DNA from: Jaminaea rosea
Lineage: Eukaryota; Basidiomycota; Exobasidiomycetes; Microstromatales
NCBI RefSeq assembly: GCF_003144245.1
Contig: NW_020289989.1
Span: 186,001-250,000, forward strand
Direction of reading: 5' to 3'
DNA: 64,000 nt
Part shown: in pieces, positions 38,592-64,000 of the stretch
How positions within the stretch are numbered: the stretch's first letter is position 1
Layout: each line of letters opens with the position of its first letter
Translations under genes and position numbers: made by a program
Notes under the pieces: model-generated
The model's input: only the letters and a program-made list of their open reading frames with translations
The model's database searches: none
Told to the model about the DNA's origin: nothing

Positions 38592-38937
38592 TGTGAGCTT
38601 GGCGCGGTGAGCTTGGCGCGGTGAGCTTGGCGCGGTGAGCTTGGCGCGGTGAGCGGGGTGATGCGGTGATGAGGAGAGGAAGCGCGGCCAAGTGTTGGAC
38701 GCGAGCAGCGGATGGAGGTCTCGAGTGGGCGGACGGAATTGGGAGCATTGGCGCCACGTGAGCAGGTCGTGGGACGCGGGGCGGGTCCAACTTCGACGCG
38801 CGAGCCAAGTTGAGCGAGCAAGTCCCGCCAGTCGGAGTCGCACCTCGCCATCACTACCACCGATCTAACCCCCTTGCTCCGTCTTACAACACGCACACGC
38901 GCATCCCTATCGATATCATCTCGCCCGAGCGCACATC
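38592..38937. promoter_or_regulatory. Divergent promoter region of Ku70 and the securin-like gene
   Basis: 346 bp between two ATGs. The Ku70-proximal end contains four perfect tandem copies of a GC-rich 14-mer (separate entry). The remainder is GC-rich without a recognised element. Confidence 0.5.
38595..38650. repeat. Four perfect tandem copies of a 14-bp unit in the Ku70 5' leader
   Basis: The unit gagcttggcgcggt occurs at 38595-38608, 38609-38622, 38623-38636 and 38637-38650, followed by a degenerate partial copy (gagcgggg). It ends 3 bp upstream of the Ku70 ATG. Each unit contains TTGGCGC, which fits the E2F-type consensus TTSSCGC and carries a CGCG core like MBF sites. Confidence 0.9.
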
Positions 38938-57900: not shown

Positions 57901-58445
57901 ACGAAATCGTATCGCAGTGCATCGATGATGAGGAATACTGCGCGTTCATGCGCGGCAGGAAGCGCGCACTCCCCTTCTCGCTCCCACTGCGAGTCCCACG
58001 ACCACAGATCAGCCTCTTCGTCCCGCTTGGGAGGGGCTGGACCAGTCATCCGATGGGATGGCGCCACATCACATCTCGTCACCCCAGTCACCTCCCGCCT
58101 TGTGAGGAGGAAGCCGCGCGTAAACAAGTAGAGCCCTGCGACATGGAATGCAGCGAGTGCTACGATTACGAGGGCCAAGAGGTGCCATGCTTGCTTCGAG
58201 ACCGACGGCAGATCCGAGCTACCGAATGCTTCTGCCCTCTTGCGCGCTTGTACAGAGGAGTGCGAGGAGTGCGAGGAGTGTGAGGAGTGAGAGGAGTGCG
58301 AAGAGTGGGAGGAAGAGCGGGGGCGTGGCTGAGGGTCCCCAGGCAGGGATGCCTGCTGTTGACGTTGCTGGAGCGCCGCGAGGGTGGGGGCTGGAGCCAG
58401 TCGCGATGGGCGTGCCGACGACGTGGCGTCGACATTGCCTGACAT
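54906..58445 (-). CDS. GPI13: GPI ethanolamine phosphate transferase 3 (GPI13/PIG-O)
   Basis: A single exon of 1,179 residues with ATG 58445 (MSGNVDATSS); the frame is open 17 codons further upstream but without an ATG. The N-terminal part has a short Ser/His repeat, then TM1. The luminal alkaline-phosphatase-like domain carries VFLIIDALRYDFV, FTLPSSLRDSSF, GDETWLKVYPGAF, VAHTLGLDHVGHR and ILAGDHGMDATGDHGG, whose Asp/His residues bind the metals. The C-terminal half has many TM helices. The ER enzyme adds ethanolamine phosphate to the third mannose of the GPI anchor, the link to protein. Length agrees with yeast Gpi13 plus a longer C-terminal membrane region. Confidence 0.95.
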   Translation of the reverse strand: MSGNVDATSSARPSRLAPAPTLAALQQRQQQASLPGDPQPRPRSSSHSSHSSHSSHSSHSSHSSVQARKRAEAFGSSDLPSVSKQAWHLLALVIVALAAFHVAGLYLFTRGFLLTRREVTGVTRCDVAPSHRMTGPAPPKRDEEADLWSWDSQWEREGECALPAAHERAVFLIIDALRYDFVAAVDNASVAQPFYQGHFTLPSSLRDSSFLAHFLSDAPTTTLQRLKGLTTGSLPTFIDAGSNFGAEAIGEDNWLAQYQHAVQRRSGGRNATFAFMGDETWLKVYPGAFDAGMTWGMDSFNVEDLHSVDTGVKEKLLPLLDDKSADWNLVVAHTLGLDHVGHRHTPSHSAMTAKLQEMNALLRDVVERLPEDALLILAGDHGMDATGDHGGEGELEVGAALWVYSPRESKKSGEFEGDIAALHAAAEHEERYGPPSHTPFSPLEGSHRSVPQTDLVPSLALLLGASPPYGNLGSVIPELFAQQGGEGLLRALRINARQVRRYLRDESAGRELRAFDAELDEHWLQALKADAAYQRQPGAQTRRSALVAYQRFTRLAMHRARGVWAQFNAAKMGAGAASLLLSMGVLLKLIGLTSGGGRTDEKRMTTVRLARETLKAAAVGAMAGVVVAGVASVGLAKMAEGLAWSDVALAGATIGGQVGALTARIGDEGSEAREVQARTTGATARSPSRWAALLRHEAPLLAPVLIHASLFASNSLTVWEDTVVHSLLTAILLYRAWNGWAAASRLAASQEAGVQAVGARGAVRIPILLILAALAVRASHSLGVCREEQAPTCSSERGPFFHLIPLSTLLASDSTRAWVGPIATLAGSYLLATALLPRLLIRSLAQSRSDTGLARFWTDWILRPSLMLGTGWWAVDWVGEGLDAQSAVQWGKNLVARADYALLIVVGTAVWLFAPLCLEVKDVGNARAEGATEPRRLQVLGFSNVFGSSYLLLVSLVFSLLWLLTPPAGQLALAASFFAVLALAEAGDAERDVAAATRGQDVQAPAPLEAATIHLLGHTLFFSTGHQATFLSIQWRTAFVGASTVVYPWAPILVGLNSFGSTAIWPALAASLLIAWNLAPKPRRTPGGEGGGAMSTLRTSLLATLVRLSLASLIVATSSALFAAHFRRHLMLFKVWAPRYMLAACSLALLDIVGVALLGVAGWATVAGKVAAAVGSEFE

Positions 58446-58701
58446 TGCGCAAAGTGAAGAGGAAAGGAGCGAGCGGCGAGCGAATGAATGCCACAAAGTC
58501 TCAGGAACAGGTCCGCCCTCTCAACTTCTTCCAGATGATCCCGCCGCTCCCGCGGTCCGACCTGTCCGTGCACGCGGCGTGGTGCGTGCGGCGTGTGGAG
58601 CAACACCACGTCCTCATCTTCACGCCTCGCAGTGCGGCAAGCACGTTTCTATCTCGATCTCATTGATATCATACACAGATGAATGGCGCGGCACGCTGCT
58701 T

Positions 58702-60276
58702 TCACGACACCTTGGCGCCTCCGTCTCCACGCCCCTCGACCACATTGAGCGCCAACCTGAGATTCCGCCTCGCCGTCTCCAAATCATCGAAATCGAGCGC
58801 CGAAATGGCAAACTTGGCGTAACGCTGTGCCGCTGACGTCTGGCGGGCGTCCAGAGACGTCGGAAGCGTGGGAGCTGCTGGTGCTGGCGGGGCTGGCGGG
58901 GCTGGCGGGGCAGAGGGAGTAGCGACGGCAGGTGGGAGGGGCGGAGCTGATGGTCCGGGTGAGGGAATAGGCTGCGTAGTTGACGGGGGCGCAGATGTCG
59001 TTCCTGCGTATGCTGATCCCGGGAAGCCATTCGGCGCTGCTCCTGCAGGCGGAGTGGGAGGAATCGGTAGCGGACGACCAGGCGCAGTCACCTGTCCCGG
59101 AATGGCGCTTCCCCTCGAGGTTGAAGAGGTGGCCGAAAGAGCCGGCGAGCCTGGCTGGCCTTGCATGGGTGGCAGCTGAAGATACGGCTGCTGCTGCGGG
59201 TGCTGAGGCGGACCGTTCGCACTACTCGTGCTCGCGCCGCTCGCGCCGGTGGATCCCCCCGTCAGCCCTCGCTCGAGTTGTGGGCGCAGCGGATGGCTAA
59301 AGTTGGGCGACGTCGACGAGGAGATCGAGGTGTTGGATCCCGATGCTGGGAGTGGCGGCGGCGGTGAGCCTGGCGTTTGGCTAGACGACGAGGGTGACCT
59401 CGACATCGCGGCGCCGGCGTCCAGAGACAGCCTCGAAGCTGCCCGCCTGCTCCTCGACGATGCATCCGCCTCGGCGCCGGGCGAGATGACCCTTGCCACC
59501 TCGTCACTCCTGAACGCATTGCCCTCGTCACCGCCCGAGCCGCCGCCCGCTCCCCCCAGCTCACTCGGCGCGGTCAGCTTGGCAATCTCCCTCGCCAGCA
59601 AATCGTCGTCCTCCTTCGCCTCACCCACCGCCTTCAACGCCTCCTGCTCCTCCTCCCTCTCCCTACGCTCCTGCTCAGGATCCCATCCCGGTGGCCCCGG
59701 ATCAGGCCTCCTCCCCTCTCGCAACGCCTTGAGAATCTCCGTCACCTTCCACTTTGCATACACTCGCTTTGAGGCAATCTCCTCGCTCGCTCCGGTGTTG
59801 AACAAGCCGAGCAGCTCCATAAAATTCGCAGCAGCCTGGAAAGCCATGGCAGTGCCCTTGCTCGCTTTGCCCGCTCGATCTTCATTGTCTGCCTTGGTGA
59901 AGACGGAGAGGGCAAAGTTCTCAACGTGGGCTGAGCCTACTTCGTCCGACGTAAATGCTTCGTTGGTCGCGAGGGCTGGTTTGATCTGTGCGCGGCGCGG
60001 ATGTCAGCTTTCAGCGACCATTGAGCTCGACCTCCTCGTCGCGCCACGCACCTCCTCAAGCTTGTCCATCATGGCGATGAGAAAGGGCATCCCCTGCGCA
60101 TCCTTTTGCGCCCCCGGCGTGGCGATGCCCTGCTGCGCGGCGTGATACAGGCACCAGTAGCTCACGATTGGGTCGGCGGATGCGAGCTCGCGATGATGCC
60201 GAATAAAGGGCGTCAGAGCTTTGAGACATGGTGGTGGTGTTGGGGTGGGCAGGGGGTTGAACAGCGGCGGGGCCAT
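58702..60276 (-). CDS. VTA1: VTA1 (LIP5), ESCRT-III/Vps4 activator
   Basis: Exons 60276-60052 and 59985-58702 (502 residues, phase 0). The N-terminal MIT-like domain comprises LKALTPFIRHHRELASADPI, YWCLYHAAQQGI and MMDKLEE, then after splicing IKPALATNEAFTSDEVGSAH, ANFMELLGLFN and ASKRVYAKWKVTEILKAL. A long Pro/Ser/Ala-rich linker follows. The C-terminal VSL domain (AAQRYAKFAISALDFDDLET, ARRNLRLAL) binds Vps4. The protein stimulates Vps4 ATPase in multivesicular-body formation. The linker is much longer than in yeast Vta1 (330 residues) and contains PPAPPAPP repeats. The motif array at 60501-61196 lies upstream of its start. Confidence 0.93.
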
Positions 60277-61388
60277 CTTGGAGCGGTATTGAAAGGACAG
60301 GAGGAAAGGAAGGAAAGCGACGGACATGCGGGCGGGCTGAGGTGGAGAACAACACTCCGACTGAGCGTCCGCTCAGCCACCCCATCCTCACAGAGAGACA
60401 GCATCGATCGGGCAACGGCGCAACAGCATCTTGCGTCGCGAGAATCAAAACATCATCCCTCGATGTTAGCGCAGGGAGCACGGCGAGAGCCAATCAGCGA
60501 CTTTCCTGACCAGAAGCGCGGGAGACCATCACCTTCTCAACCTGACGCAACGAATGCCAGGCCATCCCGTAGCAGTGGCACTTTCCTGACCGGAGTCGAA
60601 GCCTCAACCTAGCCCAGCAGCAGATGAAGCTTGCCACCTTGCTGCGGGCAAGCCACGGTAACTTTCCTGACCCGAGCGAGGAACATTGCTACCCAAGCCT
60701 CCATCGGGCAGGGCGCCTGACTCTACTTTCCGGACCAGAAGGCACGCAAAGCAGCGCTACACTCAGCTGACGCTGGGTCATGAGGCCAAGGCAAAGCGCT
60801 TTCCCAATCCAAAGTCAGGAACACCACGCCACGCCTGCGCCCACCACCTCGGAACCTGGGTCTCTTTCCTGACCCTTACCCCCGCTCGCTAGTCCTGCTC
60901 CTCAGCCAAAGGCCAAGAGCACTTTCCTGTCCCTGACCACAAGCCATCACCCAGCTAGAGCTGCGGTAGGGCGACTTGCCTACCCTAAAGACTACAATCA
61001 AGTCAGTCACCAAGCATATCCGTAGCAGCGCTTTCCTAACCCTGAAGGGTGAACGCCTTTGGACTGGACGGAGGAGGCGAGCACTTTCCTGACCAAGATG
61101 TGCCCGCACAGAAAGCCAGATTCAGAGGTGGAGAAGGAGCGTGTTGGAAGCCTTCTTCTGCCCCCGAGGTGAGGTGACTGGCCCCCTTTCCTGACCGGAA
61201 ATTGCTGGTGGCGGGCAAGGGATTGACCGCCAGGTGGCCCTACATCGCGATTGGATCACGTCTCGGGCCGCTCAGACGTCTCGGACTCATTGACGCGCAT
61301 CTCACAGCCACCAGCCCCTTGTGACCGACGAGATAATGCAATGGTATATCGAGAGCACTGCGCGCGTCAATCACGCGCATCGCGCCCC
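60277..61388. other. VTA1 upstream region, non-coding, with motif array
   Basis: About 1.1 kb between the VTA1 start and the 3' end of the next minus-strand gene. Short ORFs are incoherent. The section 60501-61196 carries an interspersed 11-mer array (separate entry). Confidence 0.6.
60501..61196 (+). repeat. Interspersed array of the 11-mer CTTTCCTGACC (6 exact, 5 near copies)
   Basis: Exact copies start at 60501, 60581, 60662, 60864, 61084 and 61186. Near copies start at 60726 (CTTTCCGGACC), 60799 (CTTTCCCAATCC), 60922 (CTTTCCTGTCC), 60975 (CTTGCCTACCC) and 61031 (CTTTCCTAACC). Start-to-start spacing is 51-102 bp (80, 81, 64, 73, 65, 58, 53, 56, 53, 102). Most are preceded by [CGA]A or G. 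The spacers are not alike by eye. All copies are in one orientation. On the VTA1 strand the motif reads GGTCAGGAAAG. Confidence 0.9.
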
Positions 61389-62447
61389 TCACGTCGACTT
61401 GCCCAGATCCCAAGCTCGAGCCTTTGGAGCTGGCTGCGGGCCTGGACTGGCTTCTTCTTCCTCTCTGCGATGGCGAAGACGTCGTCGAGGTGAGGTGCTA
61501 CGCTCTCGCCTATGATGTGAGCGCTCTTCGTCTCTGCGCCGGCTGCGATGCCGATCAGCTCCGTCCTCTGACTCTGACCGGTCGTCTCGCCGACTCCTCC
61601 GCTCTCTCTTGTCACGGTGGGTCGCCCCCCTGCCCTCGCCTCGACTTCTCTTCTTCCCGCGTTCCTCCGCCTTCTCGTCCCCCCTGCTCCTCCTCTCACC
61701 ACGCCTAGACGCACGCCGCTCCGCTTTGCCCGCATCCTTGACCCTCTCCATGAGTCCATCCCACCCGCCTTCGTCAATCAACCCCGTAGTGGGATCTGTA
61801 CTCCTCTCCACGGATACGTCGAGGAGCGGGTCGTACGTCGAAGTGAAGTAACGGTCCATCTTGCTTGGCGGTGAAGCGTCAGAGCGTCGAGGAGGGGACG
61901 CTGAGCGGCGTGGCGGGCGCCGTTCCTCCCCACGCTCATCGTGACGCCGGCAGACGCCGCGGATGCGTAGCGGCGAGACTCGCTGCGACGATGATTTCTC
62001 ATCGTACTCGTCTACGCCCCCATCATCACTCCAACCCCTCATCGTCCCCTTCTGTCGCGAGCTCGAACCAGTGGGCGCGCCCATCGCTCCTCTTCCCCGC
62101 ACCGTCTGCCTCTCGTCCTCCTCCACGCACCGACCGCGCTGCCTCTGTCCCTCTCTGGCTTCATCCTCTTGCGCTCTCAACACCGCTCTATTGTGGCCAT
62201 CCACATTCCGTATGACCGAGGCCAAGAAGCGCTTATTCGTTGAAGCGGCTTGAGTGGATTGCGGGGCTCGCGATGAGGAGCTCGCTGTGCGGGGATCGGC
62301 CTGCTGAGCCTCCGCGAGCAGGACATCAGCGATGTACCGGTCCAGATCACCGTCGTCCTCGGCGTCCCCCCTTGATAGCGAGGAAATGACAGAGGAGAGG
62401 GCACCTCCTGGCCGTCGGCTGCTGCCTGATGTGGATGGCGGCCCCAT
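61389..62447 (-). CDS. Arg/Asp/Ser-rich nuclear-type protein of unknown function
   Basis: A single exon of 352 residues from ATG 62447 (MGPPSTSGSSRRPGG); an ATG-less frame extends farther upstream but overlaps the divergent promoter. The N-terminal 110 residues include a short helical block (DLDRYIADVLLAEAQQ, KRFLASVIRNVDGHNRAVL). A compact motif MDRYFTSTYDPLLDV leads to TGLIDEGGWDGLMERVKDA. The C-terminal third is an RS/RD/RE-rich domain typical of splicing and RNA-processing proteins. The motif around YDPLLDV resembles conserved fungal and animal proteins with RS tails, but I cannot name the family. It is divergent from the next gene at 193 bp. Confidence 0.65.
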   Translation of the reverse strand: MGPPSTSGSSRRPGGALSSVISSLSRGDAEDDGDLDRYIADVLLAEAQQADPRTASSSSRAPQSTQAASTNKRFLASVIRNVDGHNRAVLRAQEDEAREGQRQRGRCVEEDERQTVRGRGAMGAPTGSSSRQKGTMRGWSDDGGVDEYDEKSSSQRVSPLRIRGVCRRHDERGEERRPPRRSASPPRRSDASPPSKMDRYFTSTYDPLLDVSVERSTDPTTGLIDEGGWDGLMERVKDAGKAERRASRRGERRSRGDEKAEERGKKRSRGEGRGATHRDKRERRSRRDDRSESEDGADRHRSRRRDEERSHHRRERSTSPRRRLRHRREEEEASPGPQPAPKARAWDLGKST

Positions 62448-62640
62448 TTTGGGGAGCGGAAGGAGCAAAGCCAAGCAGACTTTGCCGCACGACGGAGACA
62501 AATGCAAAGTCGACGCGGAGAACGACTCGCGACTCGCGGACGGCGAGAAAATTGACCGGACGAGTCGGCGGACGACTTGGGTTGCACTTCTTCTCGTCAT
62601 TCCCCATCCCAACGTCGCTCGCCATCGTCTTCGCAACTCC

Positions 62641-64000
62641 ATGCGCCCGACCAAGGGCGCTCGCACGCCCGACAACCTCGCTCTGCAAATCAAGTCTCTC
62701 CGCCTCAATCCCACCAGCCAAGAGCTCCGCTCCACCCTCGCGCAATGCATCTCACGCTGTCAATCCCCCGATGCAACACGCCAGAGTCTCGATGACCTTT
62801 CCCAGTGGGCTACCGCGGGTAAGCAGGCGATAGGCAAGGGTGTCGACGTAAGCTTCCTGGAAGAAGACGAGCTGCAGACTGCCTTGACGCACTTGATCTG
62901 GGACAAGCTGGATGACTCGAGCGCCGTTTCCAAGAGGATGGAGAGCACTGCGGTGCTCCTCCTCAGCATCATCGACTCGATGCCCACCGTCAACGCAGCG
63001 ACATCGACATCACCTGCGCCTCTCTGCCCACTCGCCGCCAACCTGCTTCGCCGTGCCAACGCGGACACGGCCATCCGCACCTCCCTCGTCGTCTACGACA
63101 TCCTCCTCAGTGTCTACGACGGCACGCGCATCGCAGACTCGTACGGCTCGCCCTCTCTCCAGGGACTGTATGCGCAATTTAGCACGCCTGTGAGCTCTTA
63201 CGTGGATGCGCCGACGAGGAGGGCGAGAGTATGCCGCAAGATACTGCGAACAAAGGCGAGAGACTGCGGGATTGGCTTTGCAGAGGAGACGCAAGGGTCT
63301 ACGCAAAGATGGCAAGAATGGGCTCACTTTGCCCTTTCACCAATCATTGAGGCTCTCAAGTCCTCCGATCCAACGAAGCGCAGCATCACAAGCTGGTATC
63401 AGCTGGCCGACCTCTTCGAGCTTGCACCAGCAGCCCTCGTGCCACTCCTGACCGCTCTCACCGACGGCAGACTTAACGAGGATACGATCCTCCCTGCCGT
63501 CCTTGCCGCCTTGCGAGCCGCCAACACCCAGGGGCTCGTAAAGACGGGTCAGTCTGCCGACTCGAGCCGCAGCGAATTTGTCCTCGGCTCGTCCTCTCAC
63601 ATCATCGTTGCCCACCCTTGCCAACGCTTTACCTGCATCGTGCCCCCATCCCTTCTCGCATCGTGCGCCTCGTCCACCGTCGAGGAGCTGCAAGTCTCGT
63701 CCATCTCTCTCGTCGTCGAGGGTCGAGCACTCGTCCAGCCCTTCAGTCAAGAGGACTACGCCGTGCTGGGCGTATTTATGGAGGCCTCCTTCTCAACCAC
63801 CCACCCTTCGAGCAGGGGAGCTGTCCACTCCTTGTTTGGCAAACTGCTCACCCGCCTATCAGCCAACCACCACGCCGCAGCCAAGGAGGCTGAAAAAGCA
63901 CGCAAGTTCATCGATGACCCTAGACAGCGGGAGGAAAAGGTGGCCAGCTGCCAACGCGAAATGGACGAGATCCGCGCCTTCATCATGACGCTCGTCTCGT
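62641..64000 (+). CDS. 5' part of a large helical-repeat protein, possibly THADA/Trm732-like (runs off window)
   Basis: An open frame of 453 codons from ATG 62641 (MRPTKGARTPDNLALQ) to the window end with no stop. The product is soluble and helical: repeated leucine-rich helices such as LQTALTHLIWDKLDDSS, ESTAVLLLSIIDSMPTV and LAANLLRRANADTAIRTSLV, then ALVPLLTALTDGRLNED. A later segment reads DYAVLGVFMEASFSTTHPSS followed by HSLFGKLLTRLSANHH. This resembles the N-terminal HEAT-like region of THADA/Trm732, partner of the tRNA 2'-O-methyltransferase Trm7, but the diagnostic central domain is outside the window. A generic HEAT/ARM scaffold is the alternative. Confidence 0.6.
   Translation, partial: MRPTKGARTPDNLALQIKSLRLNPTSQELRSTLAQCISRCQSPDATRQSLDDLSQWATAGKQAIGKGVDVSFLEEDELQTALTHLIWDKLDDSSAVSKRMESTAVLLLSIIDSMPTVNAATSTSPAPLCPLAANLLRRANADTAIRTSLVVYDILLSVYDGTRIADSYGSPSLQGLYAQFSTPVSSYVDAPTRRARVCRKILRTKARDCGIGFAEETQGSTQRWQEWAHFALSPIIEALKSSDPTKRSITSWYQLADLFELAPAALVPLLTALTDGRLNEDTILPAVLAALRAANTQGLVKTGQSADSSRSEFVLGSSSHIIVAHPCQRFTCIVPPSLLASCASSTVEELQVSSISLVVEGRALVQPFSQEDYAVLGVFMEASFSTTHPSSRGAVHSLFGKLLTRLSANHHAAAKEAEKARKFIDDPRQREEKVASCQREMDEIRAFIMTLVS

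Follow-up and report, generated by a model that had tools for sequence, protein, structure and literature searches.

The array and its setting

We analyzed a window of 64 kb, bases 186001 to 250000 of contig C15 (472,364 bp), in a genome of 16.6 Mb assembled into 21 contigs. All positions are those of the window unless a contig is named. The locus of interest is a non-coding stretch that holds an array of short core copies, and its setting is as follows:

58702..60327, minus strand: VTA1 gene with at least two exons (PF04652 and PF18097; predicted exon structure)
60328..61388, no strand: non-coding stretch holding the array (list of open reading frames; a DNA search of the genome matched this stretch alone)
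61389..62447, minus strand: open frame without a known family (list of open reading frames; no Pfam match for 61392-62450)
62641..64000, plus strand: Trm732-like gene that continues past the window end (PF25150 in the translation of 62644-63999; predicted start codon)

The start codon of VTA1 is predicted at 60327 or 60276, and the nearest core copy lies ~175 to 225 bp from it. The first-pass annotation had placed the array upstream of VTA1, which is true as geography, given that VTA1 lies to the left on the minus strand. The VTA1 protein finds its closest named match in Parajaminaea phylloscopi (Microstromatales; 46% identity), and a metagenomic protein reaches 94% (7,987 candidates scored). 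By choice, the open frame to the right of the array is drawn from an inner ATG; in the list of open reading frames it runs to 62750. No ATG-started frame of at least 60 amino acids overlaps 60613-61366, and a coding repeat is ruled out because most of the array has no frame of that length and most intervals between copies are not divisible by three. A duplication as the source of 60328-61388 was likewise set aside, the genome search having returned only the stretch itself, but that search is blind to short cores and missed the other arrays described below, so that it is uninformative on short common words.

The array consists of eleven copies, for which we give the scores of the matrix and of the 45-site profile introduced below:

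60501..60511, plus strand: core copy 1, exact CTTTCCTGACC with AGAAG directly after it; matrix 20.1 bits
60581..60591, plus strand: core copy 2, exact; matrix 18.6 bits
60662..60672, plus strand: core copy 3, exact; matrix 22.1 bits
60726..60736, plus strand: core copy 4, CTTTCCGGACC, one mismatch; matrix 19.0 bits
60799..60809, plus strand: core copy 5, weak, CTTTCCCAATC, three mismatches; matrix 14.9 bits, absent from the 45-site profile matches
60864..60874, plus strand: core copy 6, exact; 45-site profile 7.7 bits (E 0.68), below 8 bits by the 24-column matrix
60922..60932, plus strand: core copy 7, CTTTCCTGTCC, one mismatch; matrix 10.5 bits, absent from the 45-site profile matches
60975..60985, plus strand: core copy 8, the weakest, CTTGCCTACCC, three mismatches; missed by both matrix and 45-site profile
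61031..61041, plus strand: core copy 9, CTTTCCTAACC, one mismatch; matrix 18.9 bits
61084..61094, plus strand: core copy 10, exact; matrix 20.4 bits
61186..61196, plus strand: core copy 11, exact; matrix 19.4 bits

Across the whole window, CTTTCCTGACC with at most one mismatch has nine matches (six exact and three with one mismatch), all of them on the plus strand and all within 60501-61196. The base composition predicts 0.0002 exact copies in the 1,061-bp intergenic stretch, and none of 100 dinucleotide shuffles of the window reached nine matches (mean, 1.48; largest, 6), in agreement with the earlier estimate that chance copies should number far below one. The earlier count of six exact and five near copies in a single orientation also stands, the near copies carrying one mismatch in three cases and three mismatches in two. 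The start-to-start intervals measure 80, 81, 64, 73, 65, 58, 53, 56, 53, and 102 bp (mean, 68.5), with nine of the ten between 53 and 81 bp; they had been reported as 51 to 102 bp, a range that is correct at its upper bound and should begin at 53.

A sharp core between unlike spacers

The mean pairwise identity of the eleven copies is 0.86 across the 11 core columns and 0.26, i.e., chance level, in the flanks (columns more than 3 bp before or more than 6 bp after the core); since the copies were chosen by core likeness, the first of these values is inflated and the second is not. Inside the core, identity per column is 0.82 to 1.0 in CTTTCC and in the last CC and 0.56 to 0.65 in the three bases between them. 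The core is bipartite, 11 bp long, and abrupt at its edges: CTTTCC-nnn-CC.

The spacers had been described as unrelated at first sight, and pairwise local alignment gave the same answer, with a mean score at z = 1.6 against single-base shuffles and a best pair no better than the shuffles (p = 0.885; two of the eleven copy starts were placed one base off in this test). Tandem Repeats Finder reported no repeat at the array. A tandem satellite or minisatellite with whole units alike therefore fails for the window, on the silence of this program and the unlike spacers, as the initial reading that this is no plain minisatellite had anticipated. CRISPR arrays have identical repeats of ~23 to 47 bp and spacers of near-uniform length; a core of 11 bp at intervals of 53 to 102 bp in a fungal genome does not fit this class, which had been dismissed at the outset as well.

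In the other arrays of the genome, the motif extends to CTTTCCTGACCAGAAAG and forms an imperfect dyad, CTTTC...GAAAG. A structured non-coding RNA with a repeated box, for example a cluster of small nucleolar RNAs, could account for this dyad and for the narrow range of most intervals. We regard it as very improbable: the right arm of the dyad, AGAAAG, is poorly kept in the window copies, and no Rfam family matched 58000-64000 at its gathering score, where a search at E values up to 5 gave four sub-threshold matches. The snoU82P model scored a sub-threshold 15.5 bits (gathering score, 42) within the span of the array, on the other strand. Among 45 sites, none of 225 cells of the dyad pairing had changed on both sides; the shuffled expectation was just 0.7 cells, with sites chosen by their likeness to the consensus, so that the absence of compensatory change hardly counts against a hairpin. 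The structured non-coding transcript that the first-pass annotation had listed as an option finds no support in these results, the last of them being of low power. For a core this short and sharp, a predicted DNA-binding site would be the more economical explanation.

Arrays of the core near contig ends

Taken singly, the sites tell little, as the lone 11-mer CTTTCCTGACC has 438 matches genome-wide at one mismatch compared to 308 for its reversed control. At a spacing of 38 to 68 bp, the pair pattern CTTTCCNNNCC has 15 matches in the genome compared to 1 for the reversed pattern, and 14 of these 15 fall in six arrays, at the left of C2, the right of C3, the right of C14, the left of C15, the left of C18, and in the window, the remaining pair lying on C10 outside any array. 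Apart from that of the window, these arrays all lie within ~25 kb of a contig end. Core pairs at 69 to 99 bp number 22 compared to 4 reversed, with 6 of the 22 outside arrays; a stricter pair with TNACC gave 5 compared to 0, and a looser pair pattern at short spacing was barely above its control (47 compared to 34).

The extended 17-mer CTTTCCTGACCAGAAAG draws a similar picture, with 81 sites at three or fewer mismatches compared to 22 for the reversed control. Clusters of at least two sites number seven (on C3, C14, the left of C15, C17, two on C18, and in the window), and six of these are no more than 42 kb away from a contig end (five no more than 23 kb), all six reading inward. The seventh, in the window, is the sole interior one; the block that it marks lies 225 to 246 kb from the ends of its contig. 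This cluster count favors end arrays because the 17-mer was read off those arrays, a bias from which the core-only pairs are free. The 50 unclustered 17-mer sites show no clear enrichment at ends, with 6 within 30 kb compared to 3.8 expected; on C1, two 17-mer sites lie 4 kb short of the right end. An even spread across the genome, which had been named beforehand as the outcome that would speak against a regulatory cluster, was not found: core arrays concentrate near contig ends.

These arrays differ in how alike their units are. On C18, one array is a degenerate tandem of the same core with a period of 24 to 25 bp. It occupies C18:17779-18359, between two genes whose products start alike by eye (M-GLD--GLGRL). 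Spacer likeness is slight in the C3 array (z = 2.3) and has z values of 0.5 for C14, 1.4 for the left of C15, and 1.8 for C17. The C17 array occupies C17:412600-414000, reads inward, and is 41 kb away from that contig's right end. We also noted a small additional group of the CTTTCC-nnn-CTAGAG type at C18:26393-26509. A run of ~77 G adjoins the C14 array, and a run of 40 N adjoins the C3 array, in both cases on the contig-end side.

A matrix built from 82 sites in eight non-window arrays recovered nine sites of the window array. Eight of the nine reached at least 14.9 bits, compared to a best score of 13.4 bits elsewhere in the 64-kb window. With a profile built from 45 non-window sites, the first eight matches in the window all fell in the array and on the same strand, the last two of them (E values of 0.6 to 0.7) narrowly above the first background match. 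This recovery is circular in part, since the window 11-mer had served both to find the training arrays and to seed the matrix; within that circularity, it adds that the extended motif is common to the window and the other arrays. By matrix score, clustering, and orientation, the window array matches the core family of this genome's chromosome ends, an assignment with the same partial circularity, and it departs from that family in location, at 225 kb from the nearest end.

Alternatively, the array could be a regulatory or boundary element, a group of sites recognized by a general regulatory factor that would bind chromosome ends as well. It would act on VTA1 or shield this gene from its neighbor, an origin at an end being irrelevant or only apparent. 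In favor of such an element, the core is sharp amid random spacers; the array sits upstream of VTA1 at the distance from the start codon given above, it is the only interior cluster in the genome under the 17-mer definition, and in yeast Tbf1 is found at promoters as well as at subtelomeric sites (PMC6410037). Yet the copies have a single orientation over their 700 bp, like the end arrays, and we consider this reading unlikely. A cluster of binding sites for one regulator had been the first suggestion for the array: its form, an 11-bp bipartite core, agrees with that suggestion, but the core is not peculiar to VTA1, because the same core clusters near contig ends.

Core sites at the contig tips read inward

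At each of the 42 contig ends, we scored the outermost 600 bp at 11 bits with gapped scoring that, unlike the matrix scan of the window, allowed one inserted base. Thirteen core sites were found on 12 of the 42 tips, 13 of them reading inward and none outward, while the other 30 tips had no match at this threshold. Outside the array, the window has a background at 11 bits of 0.041 per kb and strand; in 11 interior loci of 8 kb the value is 0.074 per kb and strand, which is biased upward because each locus was fetched for holding an exact 11-mer. The match at the left of C15 is at position 242, away from the very tip. Inward-only orientation at left and right ends alike is as one would see at true chromosome ends, since random interior breaks would give both orientations, and we presume that the contig tips are chromosome ends.

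Six tips (the left ends of C9, C10, and C18 and the right ends of C8, C12, and C13) stop inside apparent tandem repeats with periods of 58, 61, or 73 bp (73 bp at four tips), close to the mean interval of the window array, and with a unit that differs between ends. Each of the six shows one apparent unit plus 16 to 37 bp of the next, which recur exactly, so that fewer than two units are visible. The sum of period and recurrence is 91 to 95 bp at five of these tips; such constancy looks like the trace of an assembler that, with words of ~96 bases, may have halted inside a longer array. Core sites were scored at four of these tips, and the right end of C12 and the left end of C18 carry a core-like word by eye and none at 11 bits. 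The A+C content on the inward strand is 59 to 77% in the nine tip units or stretches measured. The window spacers are closer to core-bearing tips (z = 3.8) than to other tips (z = 1.5), in a comparison by single-base shuffles in which 16 core-bearing tips out of 40 were picked by eye.

These tips also bear on whether the window array is a neutral minisatellite relic without function, in which the cores are alike either since the spacers had differed all along or through conversion that homogenised the cores. The repeats at the tips differ between ends while having a core-like word in common, and unlike spacers with a common core are hence possible without long decay. However, drift from alike units would hardly leave chance-level flanks beside a core of such high identity, and some arrays do have units that resemble one another, as the period of the C18 array and the exact recurrence at the six tips indicate (fewer than two units being visible in the latter). 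On balance, we hold a neutral relic to be improbable.

Telomere repeats and telomerase

No TTAGGG array was found in the assembly, nor at any of the 42 tips. A search for (TTAGGG)3 at two or fewer mismatches gave a single match, interior and imperfect, compared to eight for the reversed control. By this search and by its own sequence, the window array is no canonical interstitial telomeric repeat. Salmacisia buchloeana belongs to the class in which the VTA1 match would place the fungus studied here. Of its 22 chromosomes, 18 carry (TTAGGG)n at both ends (PMC10849329). The absence of TTAGGG from the present assembly may be a limit of the assembly. Searches for the telomerase domains PF12009 and PF21399 returned no candidates and were equally silent in 14 control genomes, which means that they do not demonstrate an absence of telomerase. 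As a check of the method, PF04652, an easier family than the telomerase domains, recovered VTA1 at 150 bits.

One could go further and suppose that the ends of this genome are capped without TTAGGG, by end-specific, strand-asymmetric minisatellites with long units that are maintained by recombination within ends and from end to end and have only a protein-binding core in common, the window block then being a fossil end or an interior site of the capping protein. The six tips at which unique DNA runs into minisatellite-like repeats, and not into TTAGGG, the missing TTAGGG array, and the telomerase searches, silent in the control genomes too, are compatible with this proposal, which we would call quite improbable.

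Origin of the window array

The reading that we favor, and that we judge on sequence grounds to be somewhat probable, is that the window block is an old, interstitial array built on the minisatellite core of chromosome ends in this fungus. Short arrays near the ends would form around a common core, approximately CTTTCC-nnn-CC(A)GAAAG, that reads inward, with units or intervals of ~24 to 73 bp that differ between ends. As such arrays age, their units would lose all likeness except in the core, which would be kept most likely through its use by a putative sequence-specific DNA-binding protein of chromosome ends. The window block may have been left by a past rearrangement that moved an end inside, or it may have been kept as reused end-type sites beside VTA1. 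The proposed age series is read from the exact recurrence of 16 to 37 bp at the tips, through the 24- to 25-bp period on C18, to the C14 and window arrays, which keep little but the core; a series of this kind, in which arrays start as tandems and lose everything else, would require selection on the core.

Several observations weigh on the other side. The identified neighbors of the block are ordinary conserved genes, which we count against the favored reading, as we do the 30 of 42 tips that had no match at 11 bits and the weak right arm of the motif in the window. In addition, no opposite-oriented array was seen beside the block in the window sequence or in the matrix scan. Two ends joined in a simple fusion would be expected to face each other with an array on either side, so that its absence from these searches argues against the simplest version of a fusion. 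Of what the first-pass annotation offered, a decayed tandem repeat in which only a core is constrained comes closest to the favored reading; the short period on C18 and the six tips with periods of 58 to 73 bp agree with it.

Comparison with known systems

Human minisatellites provide a parallel for a core that is common to otherwise different arrays: loci with different units have one short core in common (the Jeffreys core), and many lie near chromosome ends. The arrays described here resemble them in having different units per locus around a single short common core and differ in the core sequence and in that several arrays keep the core with unlike spacers. Like interstitial telomeric sequences, the window array is a repeat of chromosome-end type inside a chromosome, plausibly through rearrangement; unlike them, it is not made of the canonical telomere repeat.

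The best functional analogue, on the strength of this comparison, would be the STAR elements of Saccharomyces cerevisiae. Yeast subtelomeres carry Tbf1 sites in these elements, and Tbf1 also works at interior promoters (PMC6410037). Both systems have clustered short sites near chromosome ends, with binding predicted here, and they differ in that our core is not of the TTAGGG type and that several contig tips carry end-specific tandem repeats. In lacking TTAGGG-type sites, the window array itself departs from a STAR/Tbf1 array. Chromosome ends in Chironomus and Anopheles are associated with tandem repeats that are long and complex, and a short telomere repeat is not visible there (PMC12051294). 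Our contig ends are similarly associated with complex tandem repeats and lack a visible short telomere repeat; here the contigs stop ~95 bp into a repeat that may be terminal.

CTTTCC-nnn-CC(A)GAAAG is a concrete candidate binding site for a putative chromosome-end protein, in a genome whose end repeats differ and yet have that core in common. An interior block that was once an end could serve as a landmark for chromosome rearrangement in this fungal group, and a functional block would show a factor of the end type put to use again beside an interior gene, as for yeast Tbf1. Judged by titles and the openings of abstracts, no paper among those listed for such repeats in fungi was about this motif, and text matches to the motif strings were unrelated by appearance among the matches listed. 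Within the window, Tandem Repeats Finder also reported a perfect 14-bp tandem repeat of 4.4 copies at 38593-38654.
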